Source of the DNA: Burkholderiaceae bacterium
GTDB lineage: Bacteria; Pseudomonadota; Gammaproteobacteria; Burkholderiales; Burkholderiaceae_B
NCBI GenBank assembly: GCA_004322135.1
Contig: SCSG01000013.1
Location: 62,001 to 126,000 of the forward strand
Length of the DNA stretch: 64,000 nucleotides
Direction: 5' to 3'
Shown in pieces: positions 53,856 to 56,922 of this stretch. The stretch's first letter is position 1. Each line of letters opens with the position of its first letter. The translations under genes and the position numbers were made by a program. Below the pieces are notes generated by a model, which made no database searches, was not told the origin of the DNA, and was given only the letters and a program-made list of their open reading frames with translations.

Positions 53856-54302
53856 CTAGTGGTAACCAATACCCAACACGCAATCGCGCAGCAAATCTTC
53901 TTCATACTCAACCTCTTCCAAGAGCGCTCGCAATACGTCGCTGGCATAAAGCAAACCTATCGGTCTTGATTGACTATCGCTAACCGGAATCTGCCTTAAC
54001 ACCCTCTTTTTCATGACGTCCCAGATGCCTTGCAATTGATCTTCCGGGCTGCACTTTATGATGTCTCGCGTCATGATATCGGCAATGGCCGTGACACAAC
54101 TACATCCTGTGCAGTGGCTGATTTGCTTGACGATATCAGCTTTGGTCAGCACGCCCACCATCAGGCCTTCGGAATCACAGGCAATGACGAGATTGGTATT
54201 AGGAGCACTCAGAATCTTTGCGGCTTCCAGCACTGGAGCGACCACATCAAGGTTCACGAGCTGTTTACGGGCGATAGGCAGCATGGTGGCAACCAGCGTC
54301 AT
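53856..54302 (-). CDS. CBS-domain protein
   Basis: 148 residues with two CBS motifs forming one Bateman module: first VAPVLEAAKILSAPNTNLVIACDSEGLMVGVLTKADI, then SPEDQLQGIWDVMKKRVLRQIPVSDSQSRPIGLLYASDV. It should bind an adenosine nucleotide and probably senses energy state; no effector domain is fused. The start at 54302 is chosen as the likely one; the ORF extends 16 codons upstream without support. Confidence 0.85.
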   Translation of the reverse strand: MTLVATMLPIARKQLVNLDVVAPVLEAAKILSAPNTNLVIACDSEGLMVGVLTKADIVKQISHCTGCSCVTAIADIMTRDIIKCSPEDQLQGIWDVMKKRVLRQIPVSDSQSRPIGLLYASDVLRALLEEVEYEEDLLRDCVLGIGYH

Positions 54303-54800
54303 AATTTCTATCTCAACAGTTATTGAAAGAGGGCCCAGGAGGGCCGACACGGCAGGGTTTCAATCAGCTCCCAGGCATATCTTGATGCCTGCAAAAAATC
54401 CATGCCGGTGGGTCCCCCGAGAAAAGCGGGTTCATTTGCCACACCCGCCATTTATCCTGTGGGGGAGCCTTTCGCCGCGGGTACAAATGCGTCAGCCTTA
54501 TGCCCAACGCGACATCGGCAGAGCGATACGATTGAGTCTGATCGCACGATACGGTACTTGCATCGAGGGTAATCGGTACTTGCGACAGGCCCTTCGCAAT
54601 AGCTCGATAGAGATGGCACACCCGCAGCCGACGCGGCCGAAACCAGGCTTTGCAATATGCAAATTCCAGTAGACACGTCAACAGCCGTCAGCGTATGGTG
54701 AAAAATTCAGTAGCCACCAACTGTGATACTGCCAGGGTTTTCAAAGCCAGCTGGCAGCCGCCCGATCAAGCCGCATCGCACTTTTTACGAATGGCAGGCC
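54303..54800. other. Gene-free stretch before the sdh fragment
   Basis: About 500 bp with no recognisable gene on either strand. ORFs here are short and look like shadows. It could hold a rearrangement breakpoint, as the genes on its two sides are not a known unit. Confidence 0.4.
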
Positions 54801-54956
54801 ATGGAAGAAGAATCAACCGACACGCCCACACCCGAAGCTACGCCTGCCGCTGCGCCGGGCGCGGCAGCCCGCGAACACGCAACGCCTGAGGGTGATGGCC
54901 TTGACCCGACGCGCTACGGCGATTGGGAAAAAAACGGGCGCTGCATTGATTTCTGA
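54801..54956 (+). CDS. SDHAF4-like DUF1674 protein
   Basis: 51 residues. The C-terminal DPTRYGDWEKNGRCIDF is the DUF1674/SDHAF4 signature, the family of succinate dehydrogenase assembly factor 4, which binds free flavinylated SdhA. The N-terminal half is a Pro/Ala-rich low-complexity segment. ATG 54801 is proposed; the longer ORF from 54723 is not supported. It precedes sdhC by 129 bp, supporting a role in succinate dehydrogenase assembly. Confidence 0.75.
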   Translation: MEEESTDTPTPEATPAAAPGAAAREHATPEGDGLDPTRYGDWEKNGRCIDF

Positions 54957-55085
54957 AATTGATACCTACACCCGTTGTTGTACGAAAGTCGTTGTGCGAA
55001 GGATAAGCTTCCCGACGTAATGCACCTGCCCATAGCATTGCGCCTTTGAAGCCGTGTTGCGTGGGCAGCCACCGGGAGCCCGGAC

Positions 55086-55505
55086 ATGTCCAATATGCGG
55101 CCGCTATCACCACATCTCAGCGTCTACCGTTGGCGCGTCAACATGTTGCAGTCCACGCTGCATCGGCTTACCGGCCTATTCTTGTGTCTGGGGGCCTTGT
55201 TGCTAGCGTGGGGCTTGATCGCTGCAGCATCGGGAGAATGGGCCTGGCGCGTGTTTGCCGGATTTTGCAATAGCTGGCTCGGCGTATTGCTGCTGATCTT
55301 GTGGACGTGGTCGCTGCTGTTTCACCTGTGCAATGGCATCCAGCATCTGGTTCGCGATATGGGCAAGAACTTCGGCCCGCCGATGCGCGATCGCACACAT
55401 GAGCCTGTCTACTGGTCCACCGGCTGGATGGCCATCGGTATTAGTGTGCTGTTGACCATACTGGTGTGGCTCGTCTTGGCGTTGCAAGTCGGAGGTTCCC
55501 TATGA
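55086..55505 (+). CDS. sdhC: Succinate dehydrogenase cytochrome b556 subunit
   Basis: 139 residues, three membrane helices. The opening RPLSPHLSVYRWRVNML is the SdhC signature, and the haem-ligand region reads LLFHLCNGIQHLVRDMG. It anchors SdhAB and binds haem and ubiquinone. The stop overlaps the sdhD start by 4 bp (ATGA). The subunit looks intact, but its partner sdhD is broken. Confidence 0.93.
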   Translation: MSNMRPLSPHLSVYRWRVNMLQSTLHRLTGLFLCLGALLLAWGLIAAASGEWAWRVFAGFCNSWLGVLLLILWTWSLLFHLCNGIQHLVRDMGKNFGPPMRDRTHEPVYWSTGWMAIGISVLLTILVWLVLALQVGGSL

Positions 55506-55816
55506 GTGCCTATCCAGGACAAGATTCGCTTCGCACGCCGCTCAAGGTTGCACGCCGTTTCGGTTCCTCCAAGTCGGGCGTGCATCATTGGTGGTTGCAA
55601 CGACTCACCGCCATTGCGCTGACTCCACTTTCGATCTGGCTTCTGTTCTTCTTGGGAGCCCTGATGCACGTCGACTACCAAACGGTGCTGACGTCAATTG
55701 CGCAACCCGTGCACGCGATCTTGCACACGCTGTATACCCAGGCACTTCGGCAGTATTCAAAACGTCAAACAACTCCGCAAGTCTGGCCCCGGTGTCACGC
55801 CCATCAGGTCGCGTAG
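55502..55816 (+). pseudogene. sdhD: Truncated sdhD (succinate dehydrogenase anchor)
   Basis: The first ~75 residues are a normal SdhD N-terminus: KSGVHHWWLQRLTAIALTPLSIW, helix 1, and IAQPVHAIL at the start of helix 2. At about 55725-55740 the homology stops. The remaining ~30 residues are translated antisense to an inverted restriction-methylase fragment and look like junk. The rest of helix 2, helix 3 and any sdhA or sdhB are missing from the window. As it stands the gene cannot make a complete anchor. Confidence 0.88.
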
Positions 55817-56265
55817 CCTCGATGAGATTGCGGAACTGCCCGTCAGCGCCAAAGATGCCGGTATCGTCGGCAAACAGGCAAAACAGCAAACGGGTAAGAA
55901 GCACTTCAAGATTACGCCCCTTGAAGTTAGCACGCAAAAGGGCTTCATGGAAACGCGAAACGACGTAGGCAGCTTGCCGATTAATGGGGGATTCTTCGAC
56001 GATCTCGGGGGCGTTCTCTTCCACCAAAAAATTAAACCACCCAGCGCGCCTGGCCAGGTCTTTCAATGAGCACTCGCTGTGCTGATCCGTTTTGAGATCA
56101 TAAAGACGGAAACGGGCGAAGTCGCTGGTCACGATATAGCGCGGGCGCTCCGCCTCAGGTAAGGCCACAAAATACTCGGCCGCCTGGTTAAAGGCGGCAT
56201 CTAAATTTTTGCCCCGACTTTTATGCTCTACGATCAACAGCCCTGGGATGTCCGAAGGCGCTTCC
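55735..56265 (-). pseudogene. Internal fragment of an MmeI-like restriction-methylase gene
   Basis: The - strand frame from about 56265 to 55735 reads LLIVEHKSRGKNLDAAFNQA (catalytic E-x-K of the nuclease domain), then IVTSDFARFRLYDL, LEVLLTRLLFCLFADDTGIF and ARLAELFDVLNT. This is the N-terminal nuclease and helical part of type IIL (MmeI-type) enzymes. It lacks a start, being open to a TAG just upstream, and ends at the sdhD junction without the methyltransferase domain. The ORF track shows it as 55605-56237, including out-of-family residues. Confidence 0.8.
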
Positions 56266-56462
56266 AGGCGTCTTTTAGGCTACCGGCGAGCCATCCCGAA
56301 ACCGCTAAAATGCCGTAAGGCACCATGGCTTCACAAGGCCACTATGTTAAAATACAAGACGTTAAGAAGTAGCTGTTCACACATCGAAAATATCAGGCAA
56401 CACTCCAGCGATTGCGCTTCAGAGCTACATTGATCCAGAAGTATTTGAAAGGATTAAACCCA

Positions 56463-56681
56463 ATGGCTATTGATCTTCCCGATGTGTATTTTGGTTCGCC
56501 GTCAGAAGAACCTGCTGACTGGCGCAATTTTGACGATCCCGATCCAGACGATGAAGAACTGGAAGTAACCGATCCGCTTGTTGTTGCGGTTTTGGGCTTT
56601 GATCCGAAAGAGTTTTCCAAAGAAACAGCAGATGACGTTTCACATGAAGCCGGCGCCACCAAGTCAAAGTCTATTGAGTAG
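56463..56681 (+). CDS. Hypothetical small acidic protein
   Basis: 72 residues, strongly acidic in the middle (DDPDPDDEELEVTD). No membrane helix or signal. Not recognised. AAAGGA precedes ATG 56463; the ORF from 56412 adds 17 residues with a basic start. It lies between the methylase fragment and tRNA-Ser and may be cargo of a lost element. Confidence 0.5.
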   Translation: MAIDLPDVYFGSPSEEPADWRNFDDPDPDDEELEVTDPLVVAVLGFDPKEFSKETADDVSHEAGATKSKSIE

Positions 56682-56778
56682 TGTGGCCTGCTCTTTCATG
56701 GCGGCCTGCAAATCCTTAAGGGACTGACGCCGTTTTGTCTCGCGGGCGAAGGCTCCGGTACGCCCTGAAGGATCCAAC

Positions 56779-56829: not shown

Positions 56830-56922
56830 TGGCGGAGACAGAGGGATTCGAACCCTCGATGCGGGTATAAGCCGCATGCTCCCTTAGCAGGGGAGTACCT
56901 TCAACCACTCGGCCATGTCTCC
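56830..56922 (-). tRNA. tRNA-Ser (GCT)
   Basis: Reverse complement starts GGAGACATGGCCGAGTGGTT, with a long variable arm typical of tRNA-Ser. The anticodon loop CTGCTAA gives GCT, reading AGC/AGU. T loop GGTTCGAATCC and encoded CCA. It lies 60 bp downstream of lysC. Confidence 0.96.

Follow-up and report, generated by a model that had tools for sequence, protein, structure and literature searches.

A probable decayed remnant in a Burkholderiaceae genome where a second succinate dehydrogenase operon meets the end of a tRNA-Ser island

Background

In the 64,000-nucleotide stretch of Burkholderiaceae DNA analyzed here (the window; bases 62001-126000 of the 171,340-bp contig C1, in a draft genome of 3.38 Mb and 49 contigs), a succinate dehydrogenase (SDH) gene, sdhD, breaks off and is met on the opposite strand by a piece of an MmeI-like restriction-methylase gene. 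The locus raises the questions of whether the strain has lost its succinate dehydrogenase, whether the join is real, and how it arose. A sequence-only reading of the window had offered three explanations: deletion of the interval between a tRNA-Ser island and the sdh operon, a relic copy with a full operon elsewhere, or a chimeric assembly. We conclude with high confidence that decay has brought together the remains of two dispensable elements, a redundant SDH operon of a second type and the end of a tRNA-Ser island carrying an MmeI-like gene, through at least three deletions between short repeats. The first two explanations thus hold at once.

Results and discussion

A relic of a second type of SDH operon

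The features of the locus are listed in Table 1. The gene order CBS - sdhC - sdhD - sdhA is that of an operon found intact in two other genomes of the family, G020 and G242, where a CBS-domain gene likewise lies beside it, and the CBS-domain protein, SdhC and the truncated SdhD (SdhD') are 75-81% identical to the G020 proteins. The DUF1674 gene, of the succinate dehydrogenase assembly factor 4 family, has counterparts in the same position ahead of sdhC in G242, G131, G133 and G169 (79-85% amino acid identity) and in G027 (75%).

Table 1 Features of the locus (window positions)
Feature	Position	Strand	Evidence
CBS-domain protein gene	53856..54350	-	PF00571, 1e-16; 78% aa identity to G020 gene
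DUF1674 gene, 51 codons, upstream of sdhC	54801..54956	+	PF07896, 3e-11
sdhC, intact, second (xenologous) SDH type	55086..55505	+	TIGR02970, 97.9 bits
sdhD', truncated close to the start of transmembrane helix 2 (~72 codons left of ~130-148)	55502..55724	+	TIGR02968, positions 2-58 of 105
Second-type sdhA scrap, peptide HAILHTLYTQAL, joined in frame to sdhD'	55712..55746	+	83-94% identical in DNA to the interior of sdhA in five relatives
Junction 2, sdhA scrap/methylase fragment	55743..55747		Overlap ACT(T), 3-4 bp; base-level comparison with sdhA relatives and G172
MmeI-like type IIL restriction-methylase fragment, residues 69-236 of 934	55744..56250	-	98.6% DNA identity to intact G172 gene
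Junction 3, 301-bp deletion of methylase 5' end	56242..56250		Overlap CCTG(G/C)GATG, 4-9 bp; base-level comparison with G172
Island flank, homologous to DNA upstream of G172 methylase	56251..56730		78.5% DNA identity
Small acidic ORF, 72 aa, no Pfam match	56463..56681	+	69% aa identity to G172, 66% to G027
tRNA-Ser(GCT), conserved beside lysC, island integration point	56830..56922	-	ARAGORN; synteny

SdhD homology ends at about 55717-55724, at the start of helix 2 as had been proposed, and corresponds to residues 1-84 of the 148-aa SdhD of G020. A functional SdhD has three transmembrane helices spread over the whole model of about 105 positions, of which only the first 58 or so are reached here. 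A functional operon of this type would comprise sdhC, sdhD, sdhA and sdhB; sdhA is down to 35 bp, at 55712-55746, and apart from this scrap the earlier reading was right that the window contains no sdhA or sdhB and nothing more of sdhD. No second-type sdhA or sdhB was found elsewhere in the genome.

Junction 1: sdhD' and the sdhA scrap

The methylase fragment had been placed directly after sdhD', within 10-20 bp. Base-level comparison confirms the strand and puts the edge of the fragment facing sdhD' at 55744; the gap between the two is not empty, and it holds the sdhA scrap, which had been missed. Against G020, sdhD homology runs to 55724 and overlaps with homology to the interior of sdhA at 55712-55746, and the residues HAILHTLYTQAL of the window ORF form part of the SdhA sequence GHAILHTLYTQAL. 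The two homologies share the repeat CACGCGATCTT at 55712-55722, its length of 6-11 bp being estimated, like the overlaps at the other junctions, from relatives at 80-99% identity and not from the ancestral sdhD, sdhA and methylase genes of this genome. Among the relatives, the copy of the repeat in sdhD is CACGCG, or CACGCGATCTT in G242, and the copy in sdhA is CA(C/T)GC(G/C/A)ATC(T/C)T. Since both sides carry the repeat, the 673-674 bp by which the window falls short of the relatives between sdhD' and the scrap would have been removed by a deletion between short repeats of about 6-11 bases. When breakpoints were placed at random in the intact sdhD/sdhA pair of G242, six or more shared bases were obtained in 0.2% of trials.

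The methylase fragment and junctions 2 and 3

The minus-strand ORF at 55605-56237 matches positions 66-180 of 181 of the MmeI_N profile and positions 2-58 of 75 of MmeI_hel. The Pfam E-values (4e-10 to 2e-21), together with identity to the G172 gene at 500 of 507 bases, exclude a chance match; the seven differences produce four amino acid changes. The profile search carried the methylase homology past 55744, as far as 55671, and base-level comparison identified this extension as an alignment forced into the sdhA scrap.

A type IIL fragment lacking both ends had been recognized correctly. The fragment retains the last portion of the nuclease domain and some of the helical spacer; residues 1-68 and 237-934 are absent, and with them the catalytic aspartate and the methylase, target-recognition and C-terminal domains. 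The nuclease catalytic residues of MmeI, D...ExK, are D70, E80 and K82 (PMC4833311). In the window fragment the ExK half is kept (VEHK), and the upstream segment with the aspartate was lost at junction 3. The full domain set of a functional type IIL enzyme was seen at locus L059. A search of the genome for the rest of the gene, which the sequence-only reading had suggested, found no other part of it, and in plasmid records the methylase DNA matches at only 66%. Past junction 3, homology to G172 returns 301 bp farther upstream, at lower identity (Table 1).

A tRNA-Ser island probably reduced to its far end

In the relatives examined, tRNA-Ser(GCT) is linked to lysC, the pair forming a core locus, and in nearly all of them similarity ends at or near the 3' end of the tRNA, which serves several genomes of the family as an integration site. 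Integrase-like ORFs, recognized by eye and not by family search, abut this tRNA in three relatives (L052, L055 and L056). At another locus a 27-bp partial repeat of the tRNA-Ser(GCT) end was noted (L045:1453-1479).

The search with the 72-aa ORF led to G172, a genome of another genus of the family. There the ORF adjoins the MmeI-like gene, which stands at the far end of an island, while an integrase-like ORF abuts the tRNA-Ser. This G172 island, at tRNA-Ser(GGA) (L157:12909-19001 and L158:1-4348), also carries replication-like genes, and its MmeI-like gene is intact. The island remnant in the window is apparently related to it. Only about 580 bp, with no integrase found in them, separate the methylase fragment from the tRNA; the island body is therefore gone. 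A duplicate of the tRNA-Ser 3' end was sought in the window as a second attachment site, and no repeat of this end longer than 11-15 bp was found. Deletion 2 of the scheme below would have removed the copy at the far border.

Similarity to G172 over 55744-56730 is mosaic, at 98.6% in the methylase piece and 78.5% over the flank as a whole, with the lowest values around 56440-56530. Given the different identities, the methylase piece may have arrived separately from its flank.

Order of events and competing explanations

The order of events that we infer from the sequence would start from a redundant DUF1674-sdhC-D-A-B operon with its CBS-domain gene and from an island, integrated at the tRNA-Ser, that carried the MmeI-like gene. 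A first deletion would have taken about 673 bp and fused sdhD at codon ~72 to sdhA at codon ~170. A second would have started 35 bp farther along sdhA and ended at codon 236 of the methylase gene, which is inverted, with the loss of at least ~4.2 kb, comprising the remaining sdhA, sdhB, the 3' two thirds of the methylase gene and anything between them. A third would have removed 301 bp, including the start of the methylase gene. The absence of the island body and its integrase implies a further loss. Short-repeat recombination independent of RecA, or replication slippage, would account for such deletions.

One possible alternative, which we regard as unlikely, is a single complex repair event in which the sdhA scrap is filler DNA, copied while a break between sdhD and the island was mended in one round of microhomology-templated repair, in place of two successive deletions. 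It would explain why the two junctions lie only ~30 bp apart with short overlaps at both. However, the order, orientation and frame of the scrap are as a plain nested deletion would leave them, and junction 3 is a separate one, 500 bp away. The evidence found would fit both one such event and sequential deletions. A more elaborate form, in which one template-switching repair made the scrap and both flanking junctions and, during loss of the island, captured a methylase fragment from another genus, seems to us slightly less likely again.

An assembly chimera, in which reads of an intact second sdh operon were joined to an unrelated methylase gene, is improbable. Such an artifact might be suspected in a draft of this kind, with an estimated contamination of 3.4% and a methylase piece nearly identical to that of another genus. 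However, the junction lies ~54 kb inside the 171-kb contig, which is continuous at that point, and GC content varies between 47 and 59% over the region with no step at the junction. If two intact loci of the same genome had been joined, their other halves should occur elsewhere in the assembly; the missing sdhD, sdhA, sdhB and methylase parts are absent, which argues against such a chimera. Nor would a misassembly be expected to leave an ordered sdhD-sdhA deletion on the same strand, with short repeats and a 35-bp remainder, and a third deletion in the island flank. The earlier suspicion of a chimera thus finds little to sustain it, and successive short-repeat deletions remain the preferred reading.

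Fate of the relic and of succinate dehydrogenase

It is very improbable that the shortened SdhD, or the pair of SdhC and SdhD', serves as a functional variant anchor. In favor of this, sdhC and sdhD' are free of frameshifts, and the dN/dS of sdhC against its relatives (0.07-0.14) lies in the range of most intact copies among themselves. However, all the SdhD proteins read in relatives have their full length, which also disposes of the idea, raised beforehand as a possible refutation, of a family that naturally ends this way. In addition, the sequence encoding the tail of SdhD' comes from sdhA and from the antisense strand of the methylase gene, the second-type sdhA and sdhB have been lost, and a low dN/dS is compatible with recent truncation. 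The low value in an sdhC without frameshift and the four amino acid changes in the methylase fragment both fit a recent loss. The sdh and methylase fragments should be inert.

The absence of sdhA and sdhB from the window could suggest that the deletion took the only SDH of the cell and left a strain without complex II, a reading refuted by a complete resident sdhCDAB on the same contig. This operon, of a different type, forms one run with gltA at C1:49.3-52.6 kb (L007), ~65 kb upstream of the relic and 9.4 kb short of the window, and bears out the alternative that sdhC-sdhD' is a relic copy with a full operon elsewhere. Its proteins (SdhC 137 aa, SdhD 129 aa, SdhA 592 aa, SdhB 238 aa) are each recognized at full length by their families. 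The resident sdhA (C1:49997-51742) scores 916 bits against a cut-off of 727 and is the sole strong SdhA of the genome; a second SdhA-like match, on contig C21 (301 bits), was set aside as a different flavoprotein of 585 aa. Judging from its genes, the resident operon supplies the succinate dehydrogenase activity. The sequence settles that the strain does have its succinate dehydrogenase genes.

Patchy occurrence of the second SDH type

The two types are well separated, window SdhC being ~29% identical to resident SdhC and second-type SdhA ~54% identical to resident SdhA. The second type was found in 7 of 269 genomes of the family, this one included. Window SdhC is 74-86% identical at the amino acid level to the copies in the carriers among the other 268 genomes searched; no such copy was found in the only other genome of its genus. 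A complete second-type sdhCDAB is present in five of these six carriers (G020, G242, G131, G133 and G169); in the sixth, G027, the contig end cuts the operon inside sdhA. In G020 and G242 the operon lies far from lysC. The DUF1674-sdhCDAB type is represented by loci L041, L144, L145, L146, L147 and L042 and by window positions 53856-55724, and a CBS-domain gene adjoins it in three genomes.

Outside the family, the best-scoring SdhC proteins, from other families of the class and from elsewhere in the phylum (399 phylum genomes sampled), are only 39-51% identical, and this level of identity suggests that the second-type operon was likely acquired horizontally. The locus thereby points to a second SDH type with a patchy distribution in a bacterial family. 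A literature search turned up no publication that describes the junction or reports a second SDH operon for this group, and no identical junction was found in a close strain.

Comparison with known systems

The process is ordinary genome decay of an already familiar kind, and the odd junction is not a new gene fusion. The locus is a well-resolved case in which short-repeat deletions at a tRNA hotspot jointly removed a redundant acquired operon and an island restriction gene. The overlaps at its three junctions (6-11, 3-4 and 4-9 bp) resemble those of microhomology deletions in bacterial pseudogene decay, the sole oddity being the 35-bp scrap between two of the junctions.

Compared with the SdhC and SdhD families (TIGR02970, TIGR02968, PF01127), the window has a complete sdhC and an sdhD' that fits the first half of its model; the differences are that sdhD' has lost helix 3 entirely and helix 2 for the most part, that no sdhA or sdhB comes after it, and that its type is not that of the resident operon. 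The restriction gene belongs with the MmeI family (type IIL) by its near-identity to the intact 934-aa G172 gene, its ExK half-site and its partial helical spacer, whereas the first catalytic acid and everything beyond residue 236 are gone. Like the tyrosine-integrase islands at tRNA-Ser 3' ends, the remnant lies at a tRNA-Ser site used by relatives, and its content corresponds to the methylase end of the G172 island; unlike them, it has lost its integrase, its replication genes and, if there was one, a second attachment repeat, and it sits at tRNA-Ser(GCT), whereas the G172 island uses tRNA-Ser(GGA).
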